64,000 nt of DNA, taken from Pedobacter sp. Leaf176 (GTDB lineage: Bacteria > Bacteroidota > Bacteroidia > Sphingobacteriales > Sphingobacteriaceae). The stretch is taken from NCBI RefSeq assembly GCF_001424305.1, contig NZ_LMPD01000001.1, positions 1,074,853 through 1,138,852 on the forward strand, written 5' to 3'. This document shows positions 28,687-47,455 of this stretch, piece after piece. The position numbers and the translations under genes were made by a program. Below the pieces are notes generated by a model. It had not been told where the DNA came from. It did not search any database and saw only the letters and a program-made list of their open reading frames with translations. Every line of letters starts with the position of its first letter. Position 1 is the first letter of the stretch.

Positions 28687-30024
28687 TTACAAATCACCTA
28701 TCCCATATTCTTCTATTTTCCTGTAAAGCGTAGTCAGGCCGATGCCCAATAACCTGGAAGTTTCTGTCTTATTTCCTTTAGTATGGATTAAAACTTTTTG
28801 GATGTGTTGTTTTTCTATGTCCTGCAAATTATAACTGTTTTCTACTGGTGAGGATTCAAAAAATTCAACAGGTAATGCGCTGGTATTTAAGGTATCACCA
28901 TCAGACAAAATTACAAGCCTCTCGATAACATTCTTAAGTTCACGGATATTTCCTTTCCAGTTATGTTTCTCAAAAAGCTGTAAAATTTTATCATCCAGTC
29001 TTAGCGCAGGGTGGTTAACTTTAAGCGAAAATTCGTTTAAATAATAGCTGGCCAAGGCTGGAATATCGCCTTTTCTTTCCCGTAACGGTGGTAGTATTAT
29101 CGTAAATACCGATAGGCGATAATATAAATCGGAACGGAATTTTCCTGTCGCGGCATCATTTTTCAAATCTTTATTGGTTGCTGCTAAAATGCGGACATTC
29201 ACTTGATTCGTGCGTGTGTCGCCGACTTTAATGAAGCTCTGGTTTTCTAAAACACGCAAAAGTTTGGCCTGTAAATCCAGGTTCATTTCACCGATTTCAT
29301 CTAAAAACAAGGTGCCGCCGTTAGCCTCTTCAAGTAAGCCCTTTTTGTCTTTATTTGCGCCTGTAAATGCGCCGGCTTTGTAACCGAATAATTCACTTTC
29401 TAATAAATCCGGACTAAAACCACTGCAATTTAAGGCAACAAAAGGCTTCATCGCCCTGGGGCTTTCGTAGTGAATGGATTGTGCAAAAACTTCCTTTCCT
29501 GTTCCGGTTTCGCCTAAAAGCAGCACGGTTGTATCGGTTTTACTCACTCTTTTCGCTAAATCTATGGCTTCTTTTAAAGCCTTTGATTTTCCGATAATGG
29601 AACTAAAGCTGTGTTTGGACGAAACCTTATTTTCCAGTTCAAAAACCCGCTGCTGAAGATTTGCTTGATCCATCGCCTTGTAAAGCAAAGGAATAATTTT
29701 ATCGTTATCATCACCTTTAACCAGGTAATCAAAAGCACCGTTTTTTATGGCCAATACACCATCTGAAATGGTTCCATAAGCAGTTAGGTTTATAACTTCA
29801 ACAAATGGTTTTAGCGCTTTGATGTCCTTAACCAAGGCAACACCATTAACATCGGGCAATTTTACATCACTGATTACAAGGCTTACCTCATTCGTTTTGA
29901 GTAATTTGATGCCCTCTTTTCCAGTATTTGCCTGCAAGGTTTTAAAGCCCTCCAGTTCAATAATTCTGGAAAGTAAACTACAGATTTTCTTTTCATCATC
30001 AATGATGAGGACAATGCCATTCAT
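28687..30024 (-). CDS. Sigma54-dependent response regulator (NtrC family), probable kdp regulator
   Basis: 445 residues: receiver (1-120) with D9/D10 and phospho-acceptor D53 in ISDVKLPD; AAA+ domain (about 140-370) with GETGTGKE, the sigma54-contact motif GAFTGA and DEIGEMN; Fis-type HTH at the C-terminus (ETSRLLGIGLTTLYRKI). In Enterobacteria the kdp regulator KdpE is an OmpR-type protein; none is present here. Inference: this protein, with the kinase at 16158-17897, controls kdp through the sigma54-like site at 26140-26156. It is divergent from the PIG-L gene. Confidence 0.9.
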   Translation of the reverse strand: MNGIVLIIDDEKKICSLLSRIIELEGFKTLQANTGKEGIKLLKTNEVSLVISDVKLPDVNGVALVKDIKALKPFVEVINLTAYGTISDGVLAIKNGAFDYLVKGDDNDKIIPLLYKAMDQANLQQRVFELENKVSSKHSFSSIIGKSKALKEAIDLAKRVSKTDTTVLLLGETGTGKEVFAQSIHYESPRAMKPFVALNCSGFSPDLLESELFGYKAGAFTGANKDKKGLLEEANGGTLFLDEIGEMNLDLQAKLLRVLENQSFIKVGDTRTNQVNVRILAATNKDLKNDAATGKFRSDLYYRLSVFTIILPPLRERKGDIPALASYYLNEFSLKVNHPALRLDDKILQLFEKHNWKGNIRELKNVIERLVILSDGDTLNTSALPVEFFESSPVENSYNLQDIEKQHIQKVLIHTKGNKTETSRLLGIGLTTLYRKIEEYGIGDL

Positions 30025-30155
30025 AGGTTGAGTTTATGATGCAATATTAAAGATAAAACAGTAATTTGAGCGGATAATAATTCGTACCTTTTTCGTTTCC
30101 TGCGCTTCAAAACAAAAGCATTTTAGCATCTTTGGAGGAACACAAAGCAAATTCT

Positions 30156-32660
30156 ATGTTTAAACGACTAACCATAATATTTTTTTTAGGGTTTTATGCA
30201 ATTTTATGTTCGGCACAACAGGTTCGTCCGTCAAAATCGGCTGAAATATACCGCGAACTTAAAACCCTTAAACACTTACCAAAAGTTTTATACCTCGCTG
30301 CACATCCTGACGACGAAAATACGGGTTTGTTATCCTGGTTAATAAATGAACAGAATGTAGAAACGGCTTACCTTTCTTTAACAAGAGGCGATGGTGGTCA
30401 AAACTTAATTGGTACCGAGCAAGGTGCTGCGCTTGGCCTGATTAGAACACATGAACTCCTGGAAGCAAGAAAGCTGGATGGTGCACAGCAATTTTTTACC
30501 CGTGCCATCGATTTTGGTTTTTCTAAAAATACCAATGATACCTTTAAACAATGGGATGCCGATAGCATCACAGCTGATGTTGTTTGGGCCATACGTAAAT
30601 TTCGACCCGACGTTATTATTTGTCGCTTTCCACCAACTGCTGCTGCAGGCCATGGACAACATGCGGCTTCGGCTGTGGTTGCCGAAAAAGCTTTTAAGCT
30701 GGCTGGTGATAAAACTGCCTTTCCAAATCAACTGAATTATGTTGATGTGTGGCAGCCTAAACGACTATTGTGGAATACCTTCCGGTTTGGGTCAGTTAAT
30801 ACAACAGCTGAAAACCAATTCAAGGTTACCGTTGGTCAATATGATGCACAATTGGGAATGGGCTATGGTGAACTCGCAGGGTTAAGTAGAAGTTTGCACA
30901 AAAGCCAGGGTGCAGGTACACAATCTGTAGCCGGGATCAGAACGGAATATTTTACGCATGTATTTGGCGAACAAGCGAAAACCGGACTTTTTGATGGATT
31001 ATTTAAAACCTGGACGGCAAAAGGTAATGGCAATATCGATAGTTCCCTGGATAAAATTATTTCCGCTTTCAACTTTAATAATCCCGAAACGAGTTTGCCT
31101 GCATTGCTTGTTCTGCGAAAAGAGTTTATGGCACTAAAAAACGCAAACCTGAAAAAAGATAAAATTGCTGCGCTGGATAAAATCATTTTAAGTTGTGCTG
31201 GTTTCATGGGCGAGGTGGTTACCAATCAGGCTGAAGCTGTTGCAGGAGATAATTACAATTTCAGATTGAATCTGATTTCAAGAGCTACGAATCCCGTTGT
31301 TTTGGAGAAGGTAAAGTGGCTAGATCAGTCAGAGAATTTAAACAGAAAACTTTCGGGCGATTCTCTGATTACCATAGAACATAAAATTCAGATTCCGGAT
31401 GATGCCGCACTCACAGAACCTTACTGGCTGGCAAAACCTGCAAAAAATGCAGCGACTTTTTCTGTTGCAAATGATACTTTAATTGGTTTGCCAGAGGCAG
31501 AATCGTTACTGAATGTTTTGCTGACTTTAAAAATCGGTGCGGAAATGTTTCAGGTTAAGCTGCCTTTATCTTTTAAGAAATTAGATCCGGTACGTGGCGA
31601 TGTGGTTGAGGCCCTGCGCATTGTTCCGGCGCTGGAACTGAAATTTACGCAGCCACTTTACCTGGTTAAGGAGAACGAAGATTTACGGCTTAGCTTAAAT
31701 TTGAAAGTCAATTCAAACAAGCAATATAATAATGGTCAGTTAAACCTGCTGTATAACGGACAACGCCTGGGTGGTGCAGATCGGGTTTCCGTAACGGCTA
31801 AAGATGTTACCATCGACTACATTATTCCGAAAGCTAAATTGTCCGAAATAAATTCTAATCGCTTGCAACTGGATGCTGATTATGTGGTTGATGGCAAAAC
31901 CTACAATAAAAAACAGGTATTGATTCAGTACCCACATTTACCTTCCCTACAATATTTTGCACCTGCAACAGCGATTTTAATGAAAGGCGAAATTCTGGCA
32001 AAGGTCAAAAAAGTTGGTTACATTGAGGGTGCCGGCGATTTCATACCCGACTTTTTGCGTATTGCCGGCATTCAGGTCGATGTTTTAAAGGACGAGGATT
32101 TTTACGGGCATGCGGATGAGTCAGGCGCAAACGGCGGTGGGAATAAGTTATCACAATATGATGCAATCGTACTGGGTGTTCGTGCAAACAATACAGAAAA
32201 GAAACTCGGCCGCTGGATGCCATTTTTATGGACCTATGTTAAGGCAGGAGGTAATTTAGTTATGCAATACAATACCAATCAGGATGCTACGGTTAATAAA
32301 TTGGGCATGTATGATTTTAGCATTGCGAATAAACGTGTTACCGAAGAAAATGCAGAATTAAAATTCTTGAAACCAGGGCATAAATTGTTAAACTTTCCGA
32401 ATAAAATTACGGCCGAAGATTTTAAAGGCTGGGTACAGGAACGTGGTGCTTATTTTCCAGATAAATGGGATTCAGCATACGAAGCACTATTTGAAATGCA
32501 CGATACCGATGAAGAACCTTTGCAAGGCTCAACATTATATGCCAAATATGGTAAAGGCAATTTCATTTACACACCATTAGCATTTTTCAGGCAGTTGCCT
32601 GCCGGAAATGTTGGTGCAGCACGTTTGTTTTTGAACTTTTTATCAGCACAGCAAAATTGA
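30156..32660 (+). CDS. Exported PIG-L family deacetylase with large C-terminal extension
   Basis: 834 residues from ATG 30156, with a signal peptide (MFKRLTIIFFLGFYAILCSA). Residues about 40-230 form the LmbE/PIG-L zinc deacetylase domain with AHPDDEN and the downstream GHGQHAAS. The remaining 600 residues contain beta-rich regions and a final flavodoxin/ThuA-like segment (DAIVLGVRANN; WMPFLWTYVKAGGNLVMQYN). It probably deacetylates an N-acetyl sugar or related amide in the periplasm; substrate unknown. Confidence 0.87.
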   Translation: MFKRLTIIFFLGFYAILCSAQQVRPSKSAEIYRELKTLKHLPKVLYLAAHPDDENTGLLSWLINEQNVETAYLSLTRGDGGQNLIGTEQGAALGLIRTHELLEARKLDGAQQFFTRAIDFGFSKNTNDTFKQWDADSITADVVWAIRKFRPDVIICRFPPTAAAGHGQHAASAVVAEKAFKLAGDKTAFPNQLNYVDVWQPKRLLWNTFRFGSVNTTAENQFKVTVGQYDAQLGMGYGELAGLSRSLHKSQGAGTQSVAGIRTEYFTHVFGEQAKTGLFDGLFKTWTAKGNGNIDSSLDKIISAFNFNNPETSLPALLVLRKEFMALKNANLKKDKIAALDKIILSCAGFMGEVVTNQAEAVAGDNYNFRLNLISRATNPVVLEKVKWLDQSENLNRKLSGDSLITIEHKIQIPDDAALTEPYWLAKPAKNAATFSVANDTLIGLPEAESLLNVLLTLKIGAEMFQVKLPLSFKKLDPVRGDVVEALRIVPALELKFTQPLYLVKENEDLRLSLNLKVNSNKQYNNGQLNLLYNGQRLGGADRVSVTAKDVTIDYIIPKAKLSEINSNRLQLDADYVVDGKTYNKKQVLIQYPHLPSLQYFAPATAILMKGEILAKVKKVGYIEGAGDFIPDFLRIAGIQVDVLKDEDFYGHADESGANGGGNKLSQYDAIVLGVRANNTEKKLGRWMPFLWTYVKAGGNLVMQYNTNQDATVNKLGMYDFSIANKRVTEENAELKFLKPGHKLLNFPNKITAEDFKGWVQERGAYFPDKWDSAYEALFEMHDTDEEPLQGSTLYAKYGKGNFIYTPLAFFRQLPAGNVGAARLFLNFLSAQQN

Positions 32661-32718
32661 TTTAATTGAAACTTATGATGAAATGGATAAATTGTTTTCT
32701 TTTCCTTAAATTTGATAT

Positions 32719-32934
32719 ATGGATACTATGCGAATTGATATACTAAACCCAAAAGCCGCCAGGCTTTTAAGAGAATTGGCAGCCTTAAATCTTATTGCAA
32801 TTCAAGATACCTCTAAAAATGGATTTGTCAATGTACTGAAAAGACTAAGGTCTAAATCAACACCTTCATTTGAGGAAATTACGAAAGAGGTGGAGTTGGT
32901 GAGATCTAAACGATATGCGAAATCAGCGAAGTAG
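32719..32934 (+). CDS. Putative antitoxin of the PIN-family pair
   Basis: 71 residues with PKAARLLRELAALNLIAIQD near the start and a basic C-terminus (VELVRSKRYAKSAK). It overlaps the PIN toxin gene by 20 bases in another frame, a typical toxin-antitoxin layout. Homologues of this short type accompany PIN toxins in Bacteroidota. Confidence 0.7.
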   Translation: MDTMRIDILNPKAARLLRELAALNLIAIQDTSKNGFVNVLKRLRSKSTPSFEEITKEVELVRSKRYAKSAK

Positions 32935-33349
32935 AATAATTCTCGATACAAATCTTTGGATTAGCTTTTTAATTACTAATGATTTCTCTAAACTCGATGA
33001 AATTATATTCTCTAAAAAAAGTATTTTAGTGTTTAGCCAGGAATTATTAGAAGAGTTTTTAGAGGTTGCTAAAAGACCAAAACTCAGGCGGTATTTTAAT
33101 CAGGTAGATTTAGAAGACTTACTTGTAACTATTGATGAATATGGAGAATTTATCAAGGTAAAAACAATACTTAATATTTGTCGTGACGAGAAAGATAACT
33201 TTCTGCTTTCTCTTTGTGTTGATGGAAATGCAGATTTTCTTATTACAGGTGATAAAGACTTGCTTATTCTCAATGAGATCAACCAAACAAAAATCACCAC
33301 CATATCGGCGTTTTTGAACGATAATTTTGAAGATATTTTAGATCATTAG
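32915..33349 (+). CDS. PIN-domain toxin (VapC-like)
   Basis: 144 residues. Acidic residues expected for Mg2+-dependent PIN nucleases are visible: D in IILDTNLWISF near the N-terminus, E residues in EELLEEFLEV, D in CRDEKDNFLLSL and D in ITGDKDLL. Predicted endoribonuclease; the overlapping upstream gene is its likely antitoxin. Confidence 0.85.
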   Translation: MRNQRSRIILDTNLWISFLITNDFSKLDEIIFSKKSILVFSQELLEEFLEVAKRPKLRRYFNQVDLEDLLVTIDEYGEFIKVKTILNICRDEKDNFLLSLCVDGNADFLITGDKDLLILNEINQTKITTISAFLNDNFEDILDH

Positions 33350-33390
33350 CGTAGCGAGTCATATCTTAAATTTATTTTAACGCCGACATA

Positions 33391-33495
33391 ATGAACAAAC
33401 AACTTAAAAACTGGAATACCTGGTACATATTACTCGCACTGGCCCTGGTATTTCAGATCATATTCTATTATTTGTTTACTAAATTCTGGGCATGA
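33391..33495 (+). CDS. 34-residue membrane microprotein translationally coupled to the symporter
   Basis: MNKQLKNWNTW, then a hydrophobic helix YILLALALVFQIIFYYLF and TKFWA. Its TGA overlaps the symporter ATG in an ATGA junction at 33492-33495, indicating coupled translation. Some sodium:solute symporters work with small membrane partners encoded just upstream; whether this 34-residue single-span peptide is such a partner is untested. I know no named family for it. Confidence 0.7.
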   Translation: MNKQLKNWNTWYILLALALVFQIIFYYLFTKFWA

Positions 33496-35183
33496 GTAAT
33501 ATCGACTGGATAGTACTTATTTTTACCCTGTTCGCTGTTGTTGTTTATGGTATATTCATCGGCCGTGGACAAAAAAGTAACGAATCTTACTTAAAGGCTG
33601 ATAACAAAATGCCCTGGTACATTGTGCTTTTGGGCATTATGGCCACACAGGCAAGCGCCATCACCTTTCTTTCGGCACCGGGCCAGGCATACACCGATGG
33701 CATGCGTTTCGTTCAGTATTATTTTGGCTTGCCACTGGCGATGATTGTTATCTGCATTACTTTTATCCCTATTTTTCAGCGCCTGAATGTTTACACTGCT
33801 TATGAGTATTTGGAAAACCGTTTTGACAAAAAAACAAGGGTTCTTACTTCTCTGCTTTTTCTTTTTTCCAGAGGGCTTTCAACTGGGATTAGCATATATG
33901 CGCCAAGTATAATCTTATCAAGCGTTTTAAACTGGAACATCTATTTAACCAATGTTCTTACAGGCGGTATTCTTTTAATTTATACTTATGTAGGCGGTGC
34001 AAAGGCTATTGCGCATACCCAGAAATTACAGTTTCTGATTATTCTTGGAACCATGGCTTTCGCAGGTTATCTGCTGGTTCAGAACATGCCAGATGGCATT
34101 GGTTTTAAAGATGCGCTTTACCTCGCCGGAAAGTCTGGAAAGTTAAATGTAATTACAACAGAATTCGATTGGAAAGATAAATACAACATCTGGAGTGGAT
34201 TAATCGGCGGTTTTTTCCTTGCGCTTTCTTATTTCGGCACCGATCAAAGCCAGGTAGGACGGTACATCACTGCAAAAGACAATACCAATGCGAAAATGGG
34301 TTTGCTGCTAAACGGATTGGTTAAAATTCCAATGCAGTTTGCCATTCTGTTAATCGGAGCATTGCTTTTTGCATTCTTCTCTTTAAAACCAGCACCGATT
34401 TATTTTAATGAACGCTCTTACCAATACCTGAAGGAGACCAGTCCGGACAAAGCAGCGGTTTTTGAGCAGGAACACAATGCTTTGCAAAAGCAGTTTAGTG
34501 CTGAATCAAAAGAAATTCTGGCTCAAAAGGATAGTAAATCTCCCAGACTTGACCAGACAGTCGAAGCTTTCAAAAAAACGCAAGTTCAGGTGAAAGATTT
34601 GCACGGCAGGGTAGAAGAGGCCATCAATAATTCAAATTATAACGCCGAGAAGACAGATACCAATTACATCTTCCTTTATTTTGTAAAGAACACGCTTCCA
34701 ATGGGCATGGTTGGTTTGCTATTTGCTGTAATTTTTTTGGCAAGCTGGGGATCGATATCCGCTGCACTAAATTCTCTGGCCGCTTGTTCATTAAAAGATA
34801 TCCATTTGATATTTGCAAAGGATAAACCAGACGAAGAAACGGAATTGAAATACAGCCGGCTGCATACACTTGCCTGGGGTATTTTCTCGATAGCGGTCGC
34901 TATGTTTGCCACCCAGATGGGCTCATTAATTGAAGCCGTTAATGTTTTAGGTTCCCTATTCTACGGGCCAATATTAGGCATTTTCCTGGTTGCATTTTAC
35001 TATAAGAAAATTGATGGGCCAAATGTTTTTATTTCTGCCATCTTATCAGAAATTGCGGTTATTGCCGTTTATAAGCTCGATATCGTTTCTTTCCTGTGGC
35101 TCAATGTTATCGGGGCAGCGGCGGTGATTCTATTTTCGGCACTCGGTTTATTGTTTTATAAGCCGAAAGCATTAAATTCGTAA
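33492..35183 (+). CDS. Sodium:solute symporter (SSS family)
   Basis: 563 residues with about 13 hydrophobic spans and SSS landmarks: GIMATQASAITFLSAPGQAY in the first helices, GGAKAIAHTQKLQ, and SYFGTDQSQVGRYITAKD. A hydrophilic, helix-prone insertion of roughly 90 residues (about 298-388) separates two late spans, a trait of some Bacteroidota members. Substrate unknown (sugars, sialic acid or other organic acids are possible). Coupled to the preceding microprotein; DUF2911 gene follows after 28 bases. Confidence 0.9.
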   Translation: MSNIDWIVLIFTLFAVVVYGIFIGRGQKSNESYLKADNKMPWYIVLLGIMATQASAITFLSAPGQAYTDGMRFVQYYFGLPLAMIVICITFIPIFQRLNVYTAYEYLENRFDKKTRVLTSLLFLFSRGLSTGISIYAPSIILSSVLNWNIYLTNVLTGGILLIYTYVGGAKAIAHTQKLQFLIILGTMAFAGYLLVQNMPDGIGFKDALYLAGKSGKLNVITTEFDWKDKYNIWSGLIGGFFLALSYFGTDQSQVGRYITAKDNTNAKMGLLLNGLVKIPMQFAILLIGALLFAFFSLKPAPIYFNERSYQYLKETSPDKAAVFEQEHNALQKQFSAESKEILAQKDSKSPRLDQTVEAFKKTQVQVKDLHGRVEEAINNSNYNAEKTDTNYIFLYFVKNTLPMGMVGLLFAVIFLASWGSISAALNSLAACSLKDIHLIFAKDKPDEETELKYSRLHTLAWGIFSIAVAMFATQMGSLIEAVNVLGSLFYGPILGIFLVAFYYKKIDGPNVFISAILSEIAVIAVYKLDIVSFLWLNVIGAAAVILFSALGLLFYKPKALNS

Positions 35184-35211
35184 CGAAAACAACAACAAAT
35201 AAAATAATACT

Positions 35212-35730
35212 ATGAAAACGATGATTAAATCTATTACCCTGCTATTCGCAGCAATAACCATTTCTGTAAGCGCGATTGCTCAGGATGCAAAAAAACCTGC
35301 CAGCCCGGCGGCTACGGCAACTGGTAAAGTTAAAGGTGCAACAATTACAATTGCTTACAGCAGTCCGTCAGTAAAAGGGCGCAAAATCTGGGGCGGTTTG
35401 GAAGCCTACGACAAAGTTTGGCGTGCAGGTGCAAATGAAGCTACTACATTCGAAACAGATAAAGACATTATGGTTCAGGGTAAAGCACTGGCAGCAGGCA
35501 AATACAGCTTTTTCTTAATCCCGAAGGAAAGCGGAACCTGGACAGCAATTTTTAACAAAGAACCTAAACAATGGGGTGCCTATAAATATGAGGAATCTAA
35601 AGACGCTTTACGCGTTGATGTAAAAGTTGTTCCATTAAAGGCCACACAGGAAACCCTGGTTTATAAAATTACAAAAAGCGGTTTCACGATGAACTGGGAT
35701 AAAATATCTGTACCGGTTGCAATAAAATAA
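35212..35730 (+). CDS. DUF2911 exported protein
   Basis: 172 residues with a signal peptide ([20 protein letters not shown], cleaved near AIAQ). The mature part matches DUF2911: [36 protein letters not shown] and GKYSFFLIP. Periplasmic, function unknown. A strong terminator follows. Confidence 0.88.
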
Positions 35731-36186: not shown

Positions 36187-36191
36187 TTTTA

Positions 36192-36213
36192 TAAAGCCCC
36201 AGACGGGGCTTTA
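36192..36213 (+). terminator. Terminator after the 113-residue gene
   Basis: TAAAGCCCC-AGAC-GGGGCTTTA, a perfect 9-bp stem, six bases after the stop codon. Confidence 0.82.
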
Positions 36214-36317
36214 TTTGTCTTGGCTTTTTGTTTGTTAAGAGCATGAAACATAACCTTAATTTAATCTTGAATTATATAATTTAGCTGCTTCTTCTTATCA
36301 AACCATAAATTTATCCG

Positions 36318-38393
36318 TTGAAAAAAATATTTATTTTCTGCTTATTACTTTCTTGCTTAAACGTTTTATCGCAAAACAAAGCAACTATTTTTTCTGTCAG
36401 GAATACAAAGCCTGTCGATTTGGTTAATGTGTTTTTGGGTTCGTCGGCCGATCACGGACAAATGTCGCCGGCTGCATCCTATCCTTTCAGTATGTTGAGT
36501 ATTGGTCCGCAAACTTATCCCAAAACGCATACAGGTTACGAGTACTTAGCCAAAAAGTTTTTAGGATTTACACATAATCGTTTCGAAGGTGTGGGCTGCC
36601 AGGGCTCGGGCGGAAACATTTTAATCAAGCCTTTTTTAGGTAGCGACCCTTCCAAATCTGAATTGCTGAAAGTGTCGGAAAAAGCAAATCCCGGGTTTTA
36701 TGAAGTTGGTTTTGAGAATAAGATTAAAGCGAAGTTAGCCGTGTTAGGCAATGCAGGAAAACACAACTATCAATTTCCTAAAGGAGAAAAGGGTTTTTAC
36801 CTGGATTTAAGTTATGCTTTTAACGGTGCTTTTGTAGCAGAAGAGCATGAGGTTAATGGCAAAGCCGTTAGCGGATGGATTATCTCAAAAACAACTTGTG
36901 GTGTAGGTAAGTACAAGATATTTTATTACCTGGAAGCGGGTAATTCTAACTGGAAAGACGAAGGAAATCATAAGCTGATTGCAAAAAATGGCCATGCTAC
37001 AACACAAGAGGAGATAAATATTGCTTTTTCTTCGGTAAGTGTTCATGCCGCTAAAGCCAACATTATTAAATCTTCATTCGAACAGATAAAAAATCAAAGC
37101 AGTACCGATTGGAACAATCATTTAAGTAAAATTGCCGTAGAAGGCGATATGGAAAGTGCGAAGTTATTTTATTCGCTGTTATACCGTACCATGCAGTCGC
37201 CCTATGTCATTTCAGAAAAAGACGGACAGTACAGGAATACTAAAGGTGATGTTCAAAGTGACAAAGAAGTCAGGTATAATGGTTGGGCCATTTGGGATAA
37301 TTACCGCACACAACTACCACTCTTATCATTAATTACACCTGAACGTTTTCAGGGCATGACCAATTCCATTGCTGATTTATACATTTCAGGTAAGAAGGAT
37401 TATGCTACTCAAACCGAGCCTTCGAATACCGTCAGAACAGAACATGCAATTGTCGTTTTATTAGACGCTTATCGCAAGGGTTATAAGGTTGATTTCAATA
37501 AAATTATAGATTCCTTAACGAAGGAGGTAAACGGTCTGGATTATAAATCGCCCGACAAAGCCCTGGAATCAAGTTACGACAACTGGGCATTATCCGAAAT
37601 TTACAAAATTCTTAAAAACAAGGAAAAATCAGATTTCTATTTAAATAAAGCCCTGGAATATAAAGTCTATTGGAATAAAGACTTTAAGGATATGACAAGG
37701 CCGGATGTAGACCGGATGCAGGCCCGGGGTTTATATCAGGGTACAATATGGCAATACAGGTGGTTTGTTCCATATGACGTCAAGGGTTTAATTGCATTAG
37801 ACGGCGGAGAAGAAGCTTACCTTGCAAAACTGGATGAGTTCTTTGATAAAGATCTATACAATCACGCCAATGAACCGGATTTGCAAGTTCCGTTGATGTA
37901 TAATGTAACCAGGCAAGGTTATAAATCGCAATATTGGATGCATCAATTGGCTGCCGATACGGTAATCCAGAATTATTTTAATGACAACAGTCGGGGAATA
38001 GGCAGTTACATAGGCAAAATTTATCGGAATCAGCCCCACGCTTATTTGCGTACTATGGATGATGATGCGGGCGCAATGAGTGCTTGGTATATTTTCGCAG
38101 CAACTGGTTTTTCTCCCGCTTGTGTAGGCTGGCCGGTTTATTATTTAAACGTCCCGTTGTTTGCTTCCGTTACTTATAGTTTGCCAAAAGGTAAATCCTT
38201 TGTAATTAAAACTGAAAATTTCAGTCTGAAAAATAAGTATATCAAGTCCGTCACATTAAATGGAAAGGCCTTTAAAAAAAATTACATCACTCAGGATGAT
38301 ATTCTGGCTGGTGGTGTATTAAAGATTGAAGCTTCAGCTACACCGGTAAAACTTTCTGACACAGAGAACTGGATTTCCGCATTAGAACCCTGA
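36318..38393 (+). CDS. Glycoside hydrolase family 92 with Gln at the catalytic-acid position (candidate mannosyl-phosphate hydrolase)
   Basis: 691 residues with a signal peptide (MKKIFIFCLLLSCLNVLS), so the TTG at 36318 is the start. GH92 signatures: SYPFSMLSIGPQ, THNRFEGVGC, IWDNYRTQLPLL, WQYRWFVPYDVKGL and MDDDAGAMSAWYIFAATGFSP. The Asp pair expected to act as base is kept (D581, D583). In most GH92 alpha-mannosidases the acid Glu lies in TEGNAWQY; here the aligned segment is YQGTIWQY with Gln474. GH92 enzymes that release mannose from mannosyl phosphodiesters are reported to have Gln there. It precedes an ECF sigma/FecR/SusCD set by 500 bases. Confidence 0.9.
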   Translation: MKKIFIFCLLLSCLNVLSQNKATIFSVRNTKPVDLVNVFLGSSADHGQMSPAASYPFSMLSIGPQTYPKTHTGYEYLAKKFLGFTHNRFEGVGCQGSGGNILIKPFLGSDPSKSELLKVSEKANPGFYEVGFENKIKAKLAVLGNAGKHNYQFPKGEKGFYLDLSYAFNGAFVAEEHEVNGKAVSGWIISKTTCGVGKYKIFYYLEAGNSNWKDEGNHKLIAKNGHATTQEEINIAFSSVSVHAAKANIIKSSFEQIKNQSSTDWNNHLSKIAVEGDMESAKLFYSLLYRTMQSPYVISEKDGQYRNTKGDVQSDKEVRYNGWAIWDNYRTQLPLLSLITPERFQGMTNSIADLYISGKKDYATQTEPSNTVRTEHAIVVLLDAYRKGYKVDFNKIIDSLTKEVNGLDYKSPDKALESSYDNWALSEIYKILKNKEKSDFYLNKALEYKVYWNKDFKDMTRPDVDRMQARGLYQGTIWQYRWFVPYDVKGLIALDGGEEAYLAKLDEFFDKDLYNHANEPDLQVPLMYNVTRQGYKSQYWMHQLAADTVIQNYFNDNSRGIGSYIGKIYRNQPHAYLRTMDDDAGAMSAWYIFAATGFSPACVGWPVYYLNVPLFASVTYSLPKGKSFVIKTENFSLKNKYIKSVTLNGKAFKKNYITQDDILAGGVLKIEASATPVKLSDTENWISALEP

Positions 38394-38485: not shown

Positions 38486-38674
38486 ATGGCACCTTTAAAA
38501 ACAGACGAAATCCAGAATGACACGCTAACAAGAACCTCAGAAGAAAAAGAAAATAACCAATTTTTGGAAATGCATCCCGAAGCTTATAAAGTAACAGGAC
38601 CATCACCTGATAAAATGCAATCTGTTTCTTCTTCTTTACGCAAATACGCTCACGGACTATATGGCTTATTATAG
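38486..38674 (+). CDS. Small hypothetical protein, 62 residues
   Basis: Hydrophilic 62-residue ORF (MAPLKTDEIQNDTLTRTSEE start; SLRKYAHGLYGLL end) without signal peptide or membrane span. It is followed by a terminator, which supports expression. No family recognised. Confidence 0.5.
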   Translation: MAPLKTDEIQNDTLTRTSEEKENNQFLEMHPEAYKVTGPSPDKMQSVSSSLRKYAHGLYGLL

Positions 38675-38708
38675 TTCTTGCAACAATACATTTACCGAGA
38701 AATACAGG

Positions 38709-38737
38709 AAAGCAAAAATTTATTTTTGCTTTTTTTG
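38709..38737 (+). terminator. Terminator upstream of the ECF sigma gene
   Basis: AAAGCAAAAA-TTTA-TTTTTGCTTT (38709-38732), then further T. It separates the 62-residue gene from the sigma/anti-sigma locus. Confidence 0.8.
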
Positions 38738-38878: not shown

Positions 38879-39472
38879 ATGGCCTCTGTTTCGCATTTAT
38901 CGGATGATGAACTTCTCCTCCTGCTTAAAAAGGATGATAAGCCTGCGTTTTCAGAAATCTACAACCGCTACTGGGAAAAAATGGTATCTTATTCAATCAG
39001 GTTAACCAGATCGGAAGATGAATCTGCAGATATTGTTCAGGAAATTTTTATTTCGCTTTGGAACAGAAGGCTTAATTTATCCGTTAAGGGCAGTTTGGCG
39101 GCTTATCTTATTAAAAGTACCCGGAACCTCAGCCTTCGATATATTGAAAGACACGTACACTCCATAGATTTTTTTGAAAAACTGACCGAATTCATCGTCG
39201 ATAGGAGCCAGAATATTGAAGAAAACATTTCGCTTAAAGAGTTACAGGACAAAATTGAAGTGGCCATCACAAAACTCCCAAAAAAAATGCAACAGGTTTA
39301 TCTTTTAAGCAGAGATGAGCAGTTATCTCATCGCGAAATATCAGAAAAACTATTTATAGCCGAAGGAACGGTAAAAAAACAAATCAATAATGCCCTTAAA
39401 ATTATTTCTGAATCATTAAATGGCCGGATTCCCGCTGCAATGACTGCTATATTGATGCATCTTTTAAAATAA
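38879..39472 (+). CDS. ECF-type RNA polymerase sigma factor
   Basis: 197 residues: region 2 with FSEIYNRYWEKMVSYSIRLT and DIVQEIFISLWNR, region 4 with LPKKMQQVYLLSRDEQLSHR and the HTH ISEKLFIAEGTVKKQ. It is the FecI-like type coupled to FecR anti-sigma factors and SusC receptors with an STN domain, as follows here. Expected to transcribe the downstream susCD operon upon substrate binding. Confidence 0.93.
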   Translation: MASVSHLSDDELLLLLKKDDKPAFSEIYNRYWEKMVSYSIRLTRSEDESADIVQEIFISLWNRRLNLSVKGSLAAYLIKSTRNLSLRYIERHVHSIDFFEKLTEFIVDRSQNIEENISLKELQDKIEVAITKLPKKMQQVYLLSRDEQLSHREISEKLFIAEGTVKKQINNALKIISESLNGRIPAAMTAILMHLLK

Positions 39473-39560
39473 ATCATTTTTTCTAAAAATAAATCTACCA
39501 CCAAAGCCATTTTTTTGGAATACCTATTTATATCAAGCCATCTAAACGTTCTATGCGACC

Positions 39561-40700
39561 ATGAATGCCGAGCAAACCAAAATATTATTAAAAAAATACC
39601 TTGATGAAATGGCAAGTCCAAAGGAACGACATTTAGTAGACTCCTATATTGAGGAGCAGCTGCTGTCAAATAATTGGAATGCAAGTGAAGCTGAAAAAGA
39701 AATGCTGGGCTCGAGAATAAAAAATGGCATTGACACAGCGTTATTTGGTGGTAGTAAAGTTGATAAAACAAAAACCAGGTTGATAAAACTGCTGCGAATT
39801 CCTGCGGCGGCGGCTATTGTCGTTATTTTTTTAATAGGAGGTTTATATTTTTTCAGGAAAATGAACCAAACGCCTGAAGCAAGATTTGCCAATGATATTA
39901 AGCCAGGTGGGAATCATGCAATGTTAACTTTGAGCAACGGACAAAAAATTGACCTTTCAAGCAGTAAAACGGGCGAATTGATAAATTTAAATGGAATAAG
40001 CATCAAAAAATCTGCAAATGGATTGTTAATATTTTCAGCGGTAAACGGTCTGGATAATATTAATCCTGATATGCTGAATGTCATTGAGACACCACAAGGA
40101 GGCCAGTATGAGGTGAATTTGTCTGATGGAACGAAAATATGGTTAAATGCAGCAACAAAACTGAAATTTCCTACGAAGTTCCAGGGAGAAAACAGATCGG
40201 TTGAATTGAATGGTGAGGCTTATTTTGAAGTGGCAAAAGATAAAAAGCACCCCTTTATGGTAAAAAGTGACTTGCAAACCGTAGAGGTTTTGGGTACTCA
40301 TTTTAACATCAATAATTACAATAGCGAACCGGCTGTGAAAACGACGCTTCTGGAAGGCGCCATAAAAGTCAGCAATTCAGAGGCAGAAAAATTTATTACA
40401 CCGGGCGAACAAGCTATTCTGAACGGTAAACACTTTGACATTGTTAAAGTAGATCCTACTACAGCAATAGATTGGAAAAACGGGGAATTCCGCTTTAAAA
40501 ATGAAAATCTGGAACACATTCTGCGTAAACTATCCAGATGGTATAAAGTTAGGTTTGTTGTAGAAGACAGCCTGGAACATCTGCCAGCATTCTCCGGTTC
40601 GGTATCGAGATTTGATCAGATCTCTGTGGTACTTAAAATGCTCGAAGAAACTGGAAATGTAAAATTTTATATAGAGGGTAATGTCATTACCGTAAAATAA
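39561..40700 (+). CDS. FecR-family anti-sigma factor
   Basis: 379 residues: cytoplasmic N-terminus (about 1-80), one transmembrane helix (IPAAAAIVVIFLIGGLYFF), periplasmic FecR domain (GGQYEVNLSDGTKIWLNAATKL; AYFEVAKDKKHPFMV) and a C-terminal DUF4974-like STN-contact domain (HILRKLSRWYKVRFVVEDSL). It holds the ECF sigma at the inner membrane and receives the signal from the SusC N-terminal domain. Confidence 0.93.
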   Translation: MNAEQTKILLKKYLDEMASPKERHLVDSYIEEQLLSNNWNASEAEKEMLGSRIKNGIDTALFGGSKVDKTKTRLIKLLRIPAAAAIVVIFLIGGLYFFRKMNQTPEARFANDIKPGGNHAMLTLSNGQKIDLSSSKTGELINLNGISIKKSANGLLIFSAVNGLDNINPDMLNVIETPQGGQYEVNLSDGTKIWLNAATKLKFPTKFQGENRSVELNGEAYFEVAKDKKHPFMVKSDLQTVEVLGTHFNINNYNSEPAVKTTLLEGAIKVSNSEAEKFITPGEQAILNGKHFDIVKVDPTTAIDWKNGEFRFKNENLEHILRKLSRWYKVRFVVEDSLEHLPAFSGSVSRFDQISVVLKMLEETGNVKFYIEGNVITVK

Positions 40701-40913
40701 AAAACCTTCAGGGCTAACCATCCTGGACAAATTAAATATCAACCATAAAACCAAACAAAAATGAAGAAAAGACTACTCCGGCCGCGTTAAGGAAATGGTT
40801 TAAAAGCAAAAAACCACGAATGTGTTACCAGCACATTCATGGAAAAATCGCTGAGTTAACCCTAAAAACGAATCCGAACACCCATTTACGCATTAACCCA
40901 AACAAACGAAAAT

Positions 40914-43900
40914 ATGAATTTAATTCCTTTTTATCAAGGAAGGCATTTGACCTGCCTGTCCAAAAAAATCCTGTTAACTATGAAGCTCACCATCATCATC
41001 ATGACTACGTTAATCATGCATGCTAGTGCCGGCAGTTTCGCTCAAAAATTAACTTTTTCAGGAAAAAACGTTACCATAGACAATTTATTCAAAGAAGTTG
41101 AAAAGCAAACCGGATACAGAATTTTGTATGCTACAAATATGCTTAATGATGAGACTAAAGTAAGCGTTAATTTTAGAAACGTACCTTTGGAAAAAGTGTT
41201 AAGTCATATTCTGAAAGATAAGGCGCTAACTTATAAAATAGAGCAAAATACCATTCTCATTAAAAAAGAAAAACCTTCTTTTCTAGATAAAATCAGCGCG
41301 ATCTTTACATCATCCAGATTTAACGGGCGAATTGTTGACGAGAATAAAAACCCGCTTGTTGGTGCAACAGTTACAGTAAAAGGAACGAAAAAATATGCAA
41401 TAACCGGATCTACAGGCGCTTTCGTTCTCGATCTGGAAGAAAATGATGTTTTAGTGATTTCTTACATTGGCTATGAAACTAAAGAACTGAAAATTAGTCA
41501 GGGTTTATTACAAAGTGGTGTTGCAAGTTTACTTGATATCAGCCTTACTATTTCTGCTTCTTCATTGGATCAGGTACAGGTAATTGGCTATGGAAGTACA
41601 ACAAAGCGGAACAATACCGGTTCGGTAAGTTCCATCACGGCTGATGAAATCGGAAAACAAACCATTGAAAATCCGCTATTAGCATTACAAGGCAGAATTG
41701 CCGGGGTACAAATTACGCAAGATAATGGTTTGCCTGGTGCAGGCGTAAGGATGAATATCCGGGGTGCATTCACCGGGCTTTCAGGTGCCGGATTTATTCC
41801 TTTATATGTAATTGATGGTGTTCCTTTCACACTTTTTAATGGAGCGCAACCTGCCACTGATAATCTAAATGCCTTTGGTGCGAGTGCTGCTAATGGCGCT
41901 GTAAGCCCATTTAGTATGATTGCACCGGAAGACATCGAACGTATTGATATTTTAAAAGATGCAGATGCTACCGCCATTTATGGCTCACGTGGCTCTAACG
42001 GTGTTGTTTTAATCACCACAAAGAAAGGCAGTAAGGGAAATACGACTTATAATTTTAATCTGAACAGTGGCGTTGCTAATGTAGCGAATTACATTCCAAT
42101 GATGAACACACAGGAGTACCTGGCGATGCGGAGGGCTGCTTTTGCCCGTTCCGGCGTTACGCCAACGGCTGCAAATGCGTTAGATTTAACCACTTGGGAC
42201 CAGAATGCTTATACCAACTGGCAGGATTATTTTATTGGACATACCGCACATACAACTAATTTAACTGGATCAGTTTCCGGGGGCAATGCGCAGAACTCTT
42301 TCCTTTTTTCTTCAACATATCGTAAGCAAAGTACGGTTTACGGAAGTGATTATGGGGCAACAACATTTTCCGGCAGAATGAACGCAGGGCATAAAAGCAT
42401 AGATGGAAAATTCAGTATAGATGGTTCCGTAAACTATGCCTACATGAAAAATCTACTGCCAAATACAGATCTGGCTGGTATATATGCGCTTGCACCCAAC
42501 TATCCTTTATACAATGCAAACGGATCGGTAAACTGGACCTCTACAAGTCCGCTTTCTTATGATCTGAAAAGAACAGAAGCGCAAACCACTAACTTGTTTA
42601 CCAATTTAAATCTTTCTTATAAAATTTTGCAGAATTTACTTGTCAGAGCAAATTTAGGTTATACTACAACAAGGCTCAAGCAACAGCAAATTAATCCGGC
42701 AAGTTCACAAAATCCTGCAAACTCCCGGGTAAGTACCTTAACGTATACGGATAATAATAACGACAATTACATCATCGAACCCCAGATTGTATATACAAAT
42801 AAGATTGGCGCAGGGAATCTGGAAGCTTTAATTGGTACAAGCTTTCAGAAAACCAATGCGACAAGTATTTATTTAACTGGTACCGGATACAGCAATGAAA
42901 GTTTACTTTATTCTCTTGCAGGTGCATCAACAGTCAGCACTTCAGCAAACGCAGGTAGTGTATATAAATACAATGCTTTTTTTGGACGTTTGAATTACAA
43001 CTGGAAAGGAAAATACATTGTTGACGGAACTTTCAGAAGAGATGGTTCATCGCGTTTCGGTGATAATAATAAGTTTGGAAATTTTGGTGCAGTGGGTGCA
43101 TCATGGATATTTACAGAAGAGGATTTCATTAAAGATTTAACTTTGTTGAGCTTTGGTAAATTAAGGGCGAGTTATGGTGTTACGGGTAATGATCAGATTC
43201 CAAACTATCAATACCTAAGCCTTTATTCTACTTCAGGAACCAATTCGAACTACGATGGTGCTACAACCATAATTCCAACCAACATTCAAAATCCGGATTT
43301 AAAATGGGAAACCAATAAGAAGCTCGACATCGCTTTAGAACTAGGCTTTGTTAAGGACAGGATTTTATTAAAAGCAGATTATTTCCGTAACCGTGCTTCT
43401 GATTTGCTCAACTTCATCACCATACCGTCGCAAACTGGTAGTACAGGTTATACAGCCAATTTAGATGCTACTGTTCAGACTAAAGGTTTTGAATTTGAAT
43501 TAACTACCATTAATGTGGCTTCAGGAAACTTCAGGTGGACAACAAACCTCAATTTAAGTATTATCAGAAATAAGTTGATGAAGTTTGATAATCTTGCAAA
43601 TACATTTTATGCCAGTACTTATGTTGTCGGGCAACCAACGGATATCAGACGCTTCTACAAATATACCGGTGTGAATCCTGCAACAGGATTACCCACTTAC
43701 CAGGATTTAAACGGCGACGGCCTTATCAGCTTTGCAGGCGACCGGTATATCGGCGACTATGGGCACCCATATTTCGGGGGAATGAATAACAGCGTGAGCT
43801 ATAAAAATTTCTCACTCGATTTCATGTTCCAGTATAACCATCGTTATGGAATATTAAATTCAACTTTAAGTTCTAATCCGGCGGGCATAAATTACAGTAA

Positions 43901-44273
43901 CGTGAGCACTGCGTTGTTAAATCGCTGGGCTGCAGTAGGCGATATAGCACTTTTCCCGGCGGCATCTACAGTGAACGATCCTTCCTATGGAAACCTTTCT
44001 TCTTCTGATGTAAATTGGGGCGATGCGTCCTATCTCAAACTAAAAACAGTCAGCTTAAATTACAGCTTCCCAAAACAACTGACCAAGAAACTAAAATTGG
44101 CTAATCTTAGTATTTACGTTCAGGGGCAAAATTTGTATACCTGGGCAAAACAGAAATATACTTATGATCCCGAAACAACCGTTCCCGGAACAGGTTCAGC
44201 GCTTGGAACAGGTCAGTATATCGCTACTCCTCAATTACGTACAATTGTTTTTGGTTTAAACTGCTCATTTTAA
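40914..44273 (+). CDS. SusC/RagA-type TonB-dependent outer-membrane transporter with STN signalling domain
   Basis: 1119 residues. Signal region near 20-43 (MKLTIIIMTTLIMHASAGSF), STN domain (about 45-115; VTIDNLFKEVEKQTGYRILY), carboxypeptidase-regulatory-like domain (about 137-215), plug with GYGSTTKRNNTGSVSS and DADATAIYGSRGSNGVV, then the barrel ending FGLNCSF. It imports an oligosaccharide or glycopeptide through TonB; the STN domain links transport to the FecR/ECF pair upstream. SusD follows after ten bases. An ATG at 40980 is a shorter alternative start. Confidence 0.95.
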   Translation: MNLIPFYQGRHLTCLSKKILLTMKLTIIIMTTLIMHASAGSFAQKLTFSGKNVTIDNLFKEVEKQTGYRILYATNMLNDETKVSVNFRNVPLEKVLSHILKDKALTYKIEQNTILIKKEKPSFLDKISAIFTSSRFNGRIVDENKNPLVGATVTVKGTKKYAITGSTGAFVLDLEENDVLVISYIGYETKELKISQGLLQSGVASLLDISLTISASSLDQVQVIGYGSTTKRNNTGSVSSITADEIGKQTIENPLLALQGRIAGVQITQDNGLPGAGVRMNIRGAFTGLSGAGFIPLYVIDGVPFTLFNGAQPATDNLNAFGASAANGAVSPFSMIAPEDIERIDILKDADATAIYGSRGSNGVVLITTKKGSKGNTTYNFNLNSGVANVANYIPMMNTQEYLAMRRAAFARSGVTPTAANALDLTTWDQNAYTNWQDYFIGHTAHTTNLTGSVSGGNAQNSFLFSSTYRKQSTVYGSDYGATTFSGRMNAGHKSIDGKFSIDGSVNYAYMKNLLPNTDLAGIYALAPNYPLYNANGSVNWTSTSPLSYDLKRTEAQTTNLFTNLNLSYKILQNLLVRANLGYTTTRLKQQQINPASSQNPANSRVSTLTYTDNNNDNYIIEPQIVYTNKIGAGNLEALIGTSFQKTNATSIYLTGTGYSNESLLYSLAGASTVSTSANAGSVYKYNAFFGRLNYNWKGKYIVDGTFRRDGSSRFGDNNKFGNFGAVGASWIFTEEDFIKDLTLLSFGKLRASYGVTGNDQIPNYQYLSLYSTSGTNSNYDGATTIIPTNIQNPDLKWETNKKLDIALELGFVKDRILLKADYFRNRASDLLNFITIPSQTGSTGYTANLDATVQTKGFEFELTTINVASGNFRWTTNLNLSIIRNKLMKFDNLANTFYASTYVVGQPTDIRRFYKYTGVNPATGLPTYQDLNGDGLISFAGDRYIGDYGHPYFGGMNNSVSYKNFSLDFMFQYNHRYGILNSTLSSNPAGINYSNVSTALLNRWAAVGDIALFPAASTVNDPSYGNLSSSDVNWGDASYLKLKTVSLNYSFPKQLTKKLKLANLSIYVQGQNLYTWAKQKYTYDPETTVPGTGSALGTGQYIATPQLRTIVFGLNCSF

Positions 44274-44283
44274 TTTAGATAAT

Positions 44284-45672
44284 ATGAAAATTACATATAT
44301 ATGTATCAAAAGGTTTATGGTTTTTGTGCTGTTTACAATCGCCTTAACTTCCTGTAAAAAATTCGTTGAAGCCGATATCGCCACAAACCTGATATCGAAA
44401 GATAATGCTTTTGCCAGCGATGCTTCGGCGACAAGTGCAACCTTAGCTTTATATTCTTACTATCCCACTGTTAATTCATTACAATATGTAACCTGGCTCG
44501 GCGGTCTTTCGGCCGACGAATTACAGAATACAACATCCTCAGCCGATTTAATCCAGTTTTCCCAGAATGTAATTCCATCAAATAACGTTACATCACAAAC
44601 TTATCTTTGGGATTACCCTTATCAGGTTATTCGTGAATGCAACCTGATTATTGACGGTGTAAATAAGTCGGCTGGCATTTCTGCTGCTGTAAAAAGTCAA
44701 TTAACGGGCGAAGCAAAATTTTTCAGGGCCATGATGTATTTTAACATGGTTAACTTCTTTGGTGGCGTGCCTATTAGTTCAGACCCGGTTGAGTTGAATA
44801 ATGCAAATAAACCACGGACTAGTGCTGCGGAAACGTATGCACAAATTCTGGCAGATTTAAAAGATGCTCAAAATCTTCTGCCCGCTAACTATGTCGGGAC
44901 AGCTGCTTTAAAGGTTAGGGCTAACAAATGGGCCGCAACATTTTTATTGGCAAAGGTTTACTTATACAACAAAGATTATGTAAATGCAGAAGCAGAAGCA
45001 ACGAAGGTAATCGGTTCCGGAACTTATAGCATGGCAATAGTAAGCAATGCCTTTAGTAACAGCAGCCCGGAAACCATTTTGCAGTTATCAACCCTTTTTG
45101 GCGCTTCAGCATTCTCTGGTTATCGTACAACAAGTTCTGCAAATAATGTTGCACCGCCGAATTACGTACTCTACAATAACTTTACAAAAGATTTCGAGTT
45201 AAACGACAGTCGCAAAATTGCATGGGTTGATTCTACAACTTTTAATGCAATTAAATATTATAGACTTAACAAGTATAAAGTGCAAACAGCTACTGCGGCT
45301 ACGGTCGGCAACGAATATACCGTGCTGTTCAGGCTCGCAGAGCTCTACCTGATTCGTGCGGAGGCCAGGGCACAACAAACCAATGTTAGCGGCGCGCAAG
45401 GCGATTTGAACATAATCCGGACCAGGGCAGGTTTGGCCAACACAACAGCTTCAACACAGGCAACACTTTTGGCTGCAATTGCAAAAGAAAGAAAATTAGA
45501 ATTTTTCGGCGAATTTGCCAACAGGTGGTTTGACTTAAAAAGAACAGGTACAACTGACGCTGTTTTAGGGGCATTAAAAACAACTTATAAAACAACGGCT
45601 CAATTGTTTCCTATTCCATTAGGCCAAATCAATTTAAACAATAATTTAACGCAAAACCCTGGGTATAACTAG
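44284..45672 (+). CDS. SusD/RagB-type outer-membrane lipoprotein
   Basis: 462 residues, lipobox LTSC near residue 22 (surface lipoprotein). The TPR-like helical scaffold shows AKFFRAMMYFNMVNFFGGVP, RANKWAATFLLAKVYLYNKDY, and LYLIRAEARAQ near the C-terminus. It binds the substrate and caps the SusC barrel. Ligand not predictable, though the neighbouring GH92 suggests mannose-containing material. Confidence 0.95.
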   Translation: MKITYICIKRFMVFVLFTIALTSCKKFVEADIATNLISKDNAFASDASATSATLALYSYYPTVNSLQYVTWLGGLSADELQNTTSSADLIQFSQNVIPSNNVTSQTYLWDYPYQVIRECNLIIDGVNKSAGISAAVKSQLTGEAKFFRAMMYFNMVNFFGGVPISSDPVELNNANKPRTSAAETYAQILADLKDAQNLLPANYVGTAALKVRANKWAATFLLAKVYLYNKDYVNAEAEATKVIGSGTYSMAIVSNAFSNSSPETILQLSTLFGASAFSGYRTTSSANNVAPPNYVLYNNFTKDFELNDSRKIAWVDSTTFNAIKYYRLNKYKVQTATAATVGNEYTVLFRLAELYLIRAEARAQQTNVSGAQGDLNIIRTRAGLANTTASTQATLLAAIAKERKLEFFGEFANRWFDLKRTGTTDAVLGALKTTYKTTAQLFPIPLGQINLNNNLTQNPGYN

Positions 45673-45729
45673 CGGTTTAGCTTTGAATTTTTATATAAAT
45701 AAACTTACTATTTGAGTTCGTCGTCCACG

Positions 45730-45774
45730 GCCCTTCGAAATATTCCAAAAGAATTTTTAATTCCTTTGAAGGGC
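45730..45774. repeat. Hairpin between susD and the TlpA-like gene
   Basis: GCCCTTCGAA (45730-45739) faces TTTGAAGGGC (45765-45774), nine of ten positions complementary. There is no T-run, so read-through to the next gene is likely, perhaps with lower expression. Confidence 0.5.
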
Positions 45775-45835
45775 TTAAGGTGATAATTTATAATAAAATA
45801 CCTGGGTTAAACTTTTGATAAATACAAAAAACGAT

Positions 45836-47326: not shown

Positions 47327-47350
47327 AAAACAATCTCCATTAACAAGATG

Positions 47351-47391
47351 AGCCTTACTAGAACAAATTGTTTTGGTAAGGCTTTTTTTTT
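47351..47391 (+). terminator. Terminator of the sus-type operon
   Basis: AGCCTTAC / GTAAGGCT (47351-47358 / 47376-47383) with an inner AACAA/TTGTT pairing and a run of T to 47391. Confidence 0.88.
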
Positions 47392-47455
47392 CACTTAGCG
47401 CATAACTAAAACTCTTAAGGTCTTTTTTTGTTAGGTTTTAAACTCGTTCGGTGTT

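Follow-up and report, generated by a model that had tools for sequence, protein, structure and literature searches.

A GH92 gene with Gln at the general-acid position

A stretch of 64,000 nucleotides from Pedobacter sp. Leaf176 (contig NZ_LMPD01000001.1, positions 1,074,853 to 1,138,852, forward strand; hereafter the window) contains a gene for a 691-amino-acid (aa) protein of glycoside hydrolase family 92 (GH92), a putative alpha-mannosidase acting on mannosyl phosphodiesters in the manner of CcMan5 from Cellulosimicrobium cellulans (Table 1). The open reading frame (ORF) begins with a TTG codon, at a place where several relatives have ATG or Met. Both GH92 domains pass the Pfam cut-offs (PF07971, 302.3 bits with a cut-off of 24.6; PF17678, 105.7 bits with a cut-off of 34.5). 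The gene is the weakest match to the Pfam profile among the seven GH92 genes of the host genome, aligning in two pieces (198 and 103 bits, versus 459-586 bits for the other six). The general-acid Glu typical of GH92 is replaced by Gln474 (the Q-type, as opposed to the Glu-type, enzymes below); since CcMan5, which is filed as GH92, also lacks this Glu, the residue does not define the sequence family. The closest named relative locus is that of Pedobacter sp. Leaf194 (L009; 83-84% identity).

Table 1. The GH92 gene, its active-site codons and surroundings in the window, and a locus on another contig of the same genome.
Feature	Position	Strand	Remarks
Upstream genes: sigma-54 regulator (-), PIG-L, PIN, SSF symporter, DUF2911	28687..35730	mixed	mostly kept in Pedobacter
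Terminator-like hairpin, DUF2911/GH92 gap	36191..36214	+	scan found 5 such sites vs 2.4 expected in shuffles (weak)
GH92 protein, 691 aa	36318..38393	+	signal-peptide-like N terminus (by eye); putative CcMan5-like mannosyl-phosphodiester alpha-mannosidase
Asp327, -1 subsite Asp column (BT3130 Asp353)	37296..37298	+	81/81; role according to an excerpt of PMC5930347
Arg373-Thr374-Glu375 codons, TVR(T/S)E stretch	37434..37442	+	Arg373 and Glu375 in 81/81; 0/55 other GH92
Gln474, codon CAG, general-acid position	37737..37739	+	81/81 in clade
Asp581-Asp582-Asp583, all GAT, general-base stretch (BT3990 Asp642/Asp644 columns)	38058..38066	+	Asp581 and Asp583 in 81/81
62-aa ORF directly after GH92	38486..38674	+	last piece of Pedobacter synteny; 31/80 loci
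A+T-rich hairpin with T run, small ORF/sigma gene gap	38707..38737	+	by eye; terminator scan did not report it
Sigma factor, FecR, SusC, SusD, TlpA-like block	38879..47326	+	Pfam/NCBIfam; probably not part of the GH92 system
GDPD-SusD-SusC (-) and DUF218-c14 (+), other contig	G000:C6:317083-325294 (L190:7084-15295)	-/+	profile matches; without GH92

A pattern search of the genome collection returned 264 hits, 244 of which encode relatives of the window protein; the best 80 of these 244 were kept, and counts out of 81 refer to these 80 together with the window protein. Members of this clade are 55-84% identical to the window protein and belong to several families. The comparison set comprised 55 other Bacteroidota GH92 proteins, taken from 57 matches spanning most of the profile (window gene excluded; 26/61 genomes). 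Gln474, Arg373, Glu375, Asp327, Asp581 and Asp583 are each found in all 81 clade sequences, as are Thr371 and Val372 of the TVR.E stretch and Glu367, and Gln also occupies the acid column in the three additional orthologs (3/3) from a separate genome search of the phylum. In the comparison set, the acid column holds Glu in 54/55 proteins, and the place of TVR.E mostly reads Met-(Ile/Val/Thr)-Gly, with its Arg or Glu in 0/55; neither Glu367 nor Glu375 is the rule in other GH92. The lone protein with Gln among the 55 (L113, G001:C2:280902-282236; 704 aa) is degenerate, having also lost the columns of Asp327, Asp581 and Asp583, and is possibly non-catalytic to judge from its sequence.

Gln474 was placed on the acid column by alignments with the CcMan5, BT3130, BT2199 and 7zgm chains and with the 55 GH92 proteins. 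The acid and base of BT3990 (Glu533 and Asp644 in an excerpt of PMC12858847) were located through paralog L002 (offset of 19 residues) and the 2wvx and 2wzs chains. Because the YQGTIWQY stretch is gap-free in a 40-sequence clade alignment, no neighbouring Glu shifts into the acid column. A preliminary description of this DNA had proposed that Gln takes the place of the catalytic-acid Glu while the Asp pair Asp581/Asp583 is kept, and both statements are borne out. The alignment with CcMan5-type and BT3990-type sequences that it called for puts Gln474 on the column of CcMan5 Gln536, and of the alternative that it raised, a Glu from another position filling the acid site, the alignment gives no instance among the neighbouring residues.

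Relationship to CcMan5 and other characterised GH92 enzymes

The clade and CcMan5 (PDB 2xsg, 4aq0) have the stretches LYQGT.WQY, TVR.E, ANE.DLQ and TMD.DAG in common; counted in the 2xsg alignment, CcMan5 carries Gln536 at the acid column and Arg405 and Glu407 within TVR.E. At the sequence level, the exchange of Glu for Gln is thus real, fixed in the clade and shared with CcMan5. CcMan5 is also the best match of the clade profile in the PDB (4aq0/2xsg, E ~1.5e-89), with BT3130 next (7.9e-88), and 2xsg is, in a tie with BT3130, the top structural match (Z 38.8, root mean square deviation 2.3 over 656, 29% identity) of an AlphaFold model of the window protein (mean predicted local distance difference test score 85.1, predicted template modelling score 0.88). 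In a tree built by a quick method from 74 of 140 rows, CcMan5, on a long branch, is sister to the Q-type clade, with a Shimodaira-Hasegawa-like approximate likelihood ratio support of 99. Tiels is said to have accounted, in 2012, for the Gln of CcMan5 by the phosphate leaving group; phosphate is a good leaving group, so that Gln can stand in place of an acid Glu. Motifs of the kind used in patents on CcMan5 reportedly include GD.GN, TVRWE/TVRTE and QGTLW/QGTVW. In an excerpt of PMC5930347, CcMan5 acts on mannose-phosphate-mannose linkages, and across the literature excerpts drawn on here it is the only GH92 enzyme named as a phosphodiester 'decapping' enzyme.

The window protein differs from CcMan5 in its DDD stretch (DND in CcMan5), in Glu367 (His in CcMan5), in the phylum of its host (Bacteroidota) and in length, CcMan5 being longer and having a CBM32 module according to a partial source. 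With BT3990-type alpha-1,2-mannosidases (2wvx) it has the GH92 fold and the base aspartates in common, but it has Gln in place of the acid Glu533 and lacks the loop carrying His584 and Glu585, the interval from FF to HANE being 6 residues versus ~30 in BT3990. These two loop residues are named as alpha-1,2 determinants of BT3990 in an excerpt of PMC5930347. Since the loop is also short in the Glu-type paralog L001, its loss argues against the BT3990 type only. BT3130-type enzymes (6f8z, 6f90) match the fold nearly as well as CcMan5 (Z 37.9), but have an acid Glu (Glu535, from a partial source) and CMIGNH where the window protein has TVRTEH.

Excerpts of two papers describe the E598Q variant of AnGH92A as inactive (PMC12858847), and Glu-to-Gln variants of BT3990 and NnGH92 as strongly lowered in activity with some activity left. 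Given that such variants of ordinary GH92 enzymes are inactive or weakened, the fixation of Gln in a conserved clade speaks for a change of reaction and not for decay. The proposal in the preliminary description that Gln474 reflects action on mannosyl phosphodiesters is likely right, the clade sharing both the acid-column Gln and TVR.E with CcMan5.

A recurrent locus with DUF218, c14, SusC, SusD and GDPD genes

Clustering of the genes around the 80 Q-type relatives revealed a recurrent set of neighbours, namely DUF218 (22 loci), SusC (17), SusD (17), a glycerophosphodiester phosphodiesterase (GDPD) with DUF4996 (16) and a family referred to here as c14 (13). The c14 proteins (~292 aa) have no Pfam match despite high conservation (DSLGACQG and FLYGDREVG are invariant in 11 sequences). 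The GDPD gene (PF03009+DUF4996) directly adjoins the Q-type GH92 gene, following it in 13 loci and preceding it in 3 (L047, L051, L054); 2 of the 16 loci belong to the Pedobacter group, defined as 32 loci (L009-L038, L042, L077). By profile search, a GDPD gene lies within one gene of 16/80 Q-type genes versus within five genes of 0/40 Glu-type control genes, figures to be read with the facts that the controls come from other genomes and taxa with several loci per genome, that the positive loci are mostly from Mucilaginibacter and close kin and are not 16 independent events, and that the profile, built from the 16 GDPDs of Q-type loci and 6 of the window's genome, leans to Q-type loci. A phosphoesterase of the EEP family, sought with a profile likewise built from genes near the Q-type gene, lies within five genes in 5/80 Q-type loci (L041, L050, L063, L065, L067) versus 1/40 controls. 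The enrichment of GDPD near the Q-type gene is no more than suggestive.

The genome of the window also carries this locus, on another contig and without GH92; no glycosidase was found within G000:C6:317083-325294. Genes for a metallophosphoesterase and a type I phosphodiesterase follow at a distance of ~2-4 kb. Across 251 genomes of the family, 73 encode the Q-type gene, 41 c14 and 23 both (one-sided Fisher p 6.6e-5, uncorrected for kinship). In these 23 genomes, the two genes lie within 10 kb of each other in 8, farther apart on one contig in 9 (8 at 84-126 kb, one at 1.7 Mb) and on different contigs in 6. A strict dependence of the Q-type GH92 on the c14 locus finds no support in this partial co-occurrence (23/41, 23/73), and some c14 loci without the Q-type gene still carry GDPD. 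Among the literature matches listed for GDPD, SusC and mannosidase, no description of a DUF218-c14-SusC-SusD-GDPD uptake system was found. From gene order and co-occurrence, this locus is a candidate partner of the GH92 gene, likelier than the block adjacent to it in the window, though the link is loose.

The adjacent sigma/FecR/SusCD block and Pedobacter synteny

In the 32 Pedobacter loci, the upstream company of the GH92 gene is DUF2911 (31 loci), PIG-L (30), an SSF symporter (30) and the sigma-54 regulator (27), and the downstream company is NUDIX (18) and HIBDH (20); one locus (L032) has none of these neighbours. In most of these loci the PIG-L family protein (842 aa), SSF symporter and DUF2911 (30132-32660; 33492-35730 in the window) keep their order upstream. 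The 62-aa ORF, of an unnamed family, follows GDPD rather than GH92 in L020 and L023. The hairpin between DUF2911 and GH92 suggests a separate promoter for GH92; a promoter scan was at chance level (10 found versus 10.4 expected).

Downstream, similarity to the Leaf194 locus stops at ~38673 and the sigma-factor gene begins at 38879, ~490 bp past GH92. The sigma/FecR/SusC/SusD/TlpA block stands beside GH92 in 0/32 Pedobacter loci, three of which (L012, L033, L036) reach only 0.5-2.5 kb downstream, and its nearest trace in the group is a weak SusC piece 9 kb from the gene (L029). Relatives of some of the sigma, FecR and SusC genes lie within ~10 kb in 11/80 loci, all of them outside the Pedobacter group; SusC and SusD relatives near Q-type genes elsewhere are about 24-35% identical to those of the window (SusC 24-34%), and TlpA and ChaA relatives are found in 0/80 loci. 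Scored with profiles of the DUF218-c14 locus, the window SusC/SusD pair reaches 354/133 bits, far below the 1959/930 bits of the contig C6 pair of the same genome. Because the block was not found beside GH92 in the Pedobacter loci and starts past the end of synteny, it looks separate, and on this gene-order evidence it is probably an inserted unit of its own. The region 38879-48535, comprising the block and a ChaA-type exchanger, is apparently an insertion that separates the conserved small ORF from the NUDIX gene.

Proposed activity and alternative explanations

The protein is probably an exported CcMan5-type alpha-mannosidase of family GH92, exo-acting, Ca-dependent and inverting, and it is predicted from its conserved residues to free mannose from alpha-mannosyl-1-phosphodiesters. 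A terminal alpha-mannose would be bound in the usual -1 pocket of GH92 by Asp327 and Ca, the residues of which are conserved, and Asp583, whose column is conserved and whose role is taken from characterised enzymes, would activate the water. The bond could then be cleaved without proton donation, phosphate being a good leaving group, so that Gln474 can replace Glu, as is presumed by analogy with CcMan5. Arg373, and perhaps Glu375, may hold or orient the phosphate, TVR.E occurring only in the Gln clade and CcMan5 among the sequences compared. Such cleavage would yield mannose together with a phosphomonoester. The substrate may be taken up by the DUF218-c14-SusC-SusD-GDPD locus; in Mucilaginibacter this locus contains the Q-type GH92, and in the genome of the window it is found on a different contig. 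A broader proposal, put forward tentatively and considered rather doubtful, is that the Q-type GH92 of soil Bacteroidota forms the mannosyl-phosphodiesterase arm of a DUF218-c14-SusC-SusD-GDPD system that would import and dismantle glycerol- and mannose-bearing phosphodiesters for sugar and phosphate, and that in this Pedobacter it would serve in trans.

Several results weigh against this interpretation. The structural lead of CcMan5 amounts to a tie with BT3130 (Z 38.8 versus 37.9), identity to CcMan5 in the structural alignment is only 29%, and CcMan5 sits on a long branch of the quick tree (2.15 changes per site). The GD.GN motif of CcMan5 (GDFGN) reads ADHGQ in the window protein and GDHGQ in the clade consensus. 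The association of c14 with the Q-type gene is not significant within the genus (14/33 versus 4/19, p 0.10), 50 of the 73 Q-type genomes lack c14 and 18 of the 41 c14 genomes lack the Q-type gene. Finally, GH76 gave 0 matches in the genome of the window (GH125 and GH38 were not searched), and the GH76 route to the yeast mannan backbone is therefore not encoded.

The alternatives differ in how much of the CcMan5-type chemistry they retain. All of it is kept by a narrower version of the preferred explanation, the confidences of the two overlapping, in which the substrate is not fungal phosphomannan but a small mannosyl phosphodiester (mannosyl-phospho-glycerol, or a lipid- or teichoic-type headgroup) processed together with GDPD. 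This version is possible, if on balance unlikely: a GDPD gene adjoins the Q-type gene in 16/80 loci, the genome of the window has the GDPD locus with two further phosphoesterase genes beyond it, and it lacks GH76; however, GDPD genes are widespread (this genome has 6, and 11/14 control genomes carry at least one), the locus with GDPD also occurs without the Q-type gene, and the GH76, Glu-type GH92 and GH130 genes that neighbour it in Rufibacter, in Arachidicoccus and in a single Mucilaginibacter point to mannan. Loss of the acid could instead mean that this GH92 is catalytically weakened or does not hydrolyse at all, being a degenerate enzyme or serving to bind, as the dead or much weakened Glu-to-Gln variants of ordinary GH92 enzymes might suggest, but simple decay was judged unlikely and the idea is improbable for a protein whose clade, at 55-84% identity and across several families, has Gln in 81/81 sequences and keeps the remaining active-site columns, unlike the degenerate L113.

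An ordinary alpha-mannosidase in which Glu375 or Glu367 serves as a substitute proton donor is about as improbable; both residues are invariant in the clade (81/81) and the Glu375 column has no Glu in the 55 other proteins, but Glu375 is also present in the phosphodiester-acting CcMan5 (Glu407), and Glu367 is His there. Least probable of all is the idea that GH92 and the adjacent sigma/FecR/SusC/SusD genes form one phosphomannan locus. The genes do adjoin in the window, and some relatives of the sigma, FecR and SusC genes occur within ~10 kb in 11/80 other loci, but the block is not beside the gene in the 32 Pedobacter loci (three with little downstream sequence), starts after the end of synteny, has only distant SusC/SusD relatives elsewhere and a pair scoring far below that of contig C6, and includes TlpA and ChaA genes seen in 0/80 loci. 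The block was accordingly judged an unlikely partner, and the role in uptake that the preliminary description had given it found no support.

Substrate and implications

Genes related to mannan lie close to the Q-type gene in some relatives, with GH76 and Glu-type GH92 genes of the DED type in Rufibacter (L045, L049), GH76 at ~8 kb in a Mucilaginibacter (L061) and an adjoining GH130 gene in Arachidicoccus (L078). The GH76, Glu-type GH92 and GH130 neighbours fit fungal mannan. In the yeast-mannan system of B. thetaiotaomicron, phosphate-linked mannose must likewise be removed, but the step is assigned to GH38, followed by phosphatases, in an excerpt of PMC10154615, and not to GH92. The suggestion in the preliminary description that yeast cell-wall phosphomannan is the substrate stands as a possibility, with the absence of GH76 from the genome of the window counting against it. 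Mannosyl-phosphodiester chemistry is likely, and the natural substrate is possibly fungal phosphomannan, a phosphorylated glycan or another mannosyl phosphodiester.

An excerpt of PMC9246025 describes the use of CcMan5 to uncover mannose-6-phosphate on a therapeutic enzyme. If the proposed activity is correct, the Bacteroidota clade with the active-site signature of CcMan5 (73/251 family genomes) would offer many natural variants for mannose-6-phosphate exposure, soil bacteria would gain access to phosphate-linked mannose through a GH92 enzyme, and direct tests would become possible for the GDPD locus in which the Q-type enzyme is often found. The activity itself would be of a known type, that of CcMan5, and the associated GDPD locus is the most interesting lead. 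In one cluster of loci from Chitinophaga and kin (L062, L064, L069, L070, L073-L075, L084), a gene for an NAD-dependent glycerol-3-phosphate dehydrogenase (family assigned by Pfam on L069 only) follows the Q-type GH92 gene, directly or one gene on.

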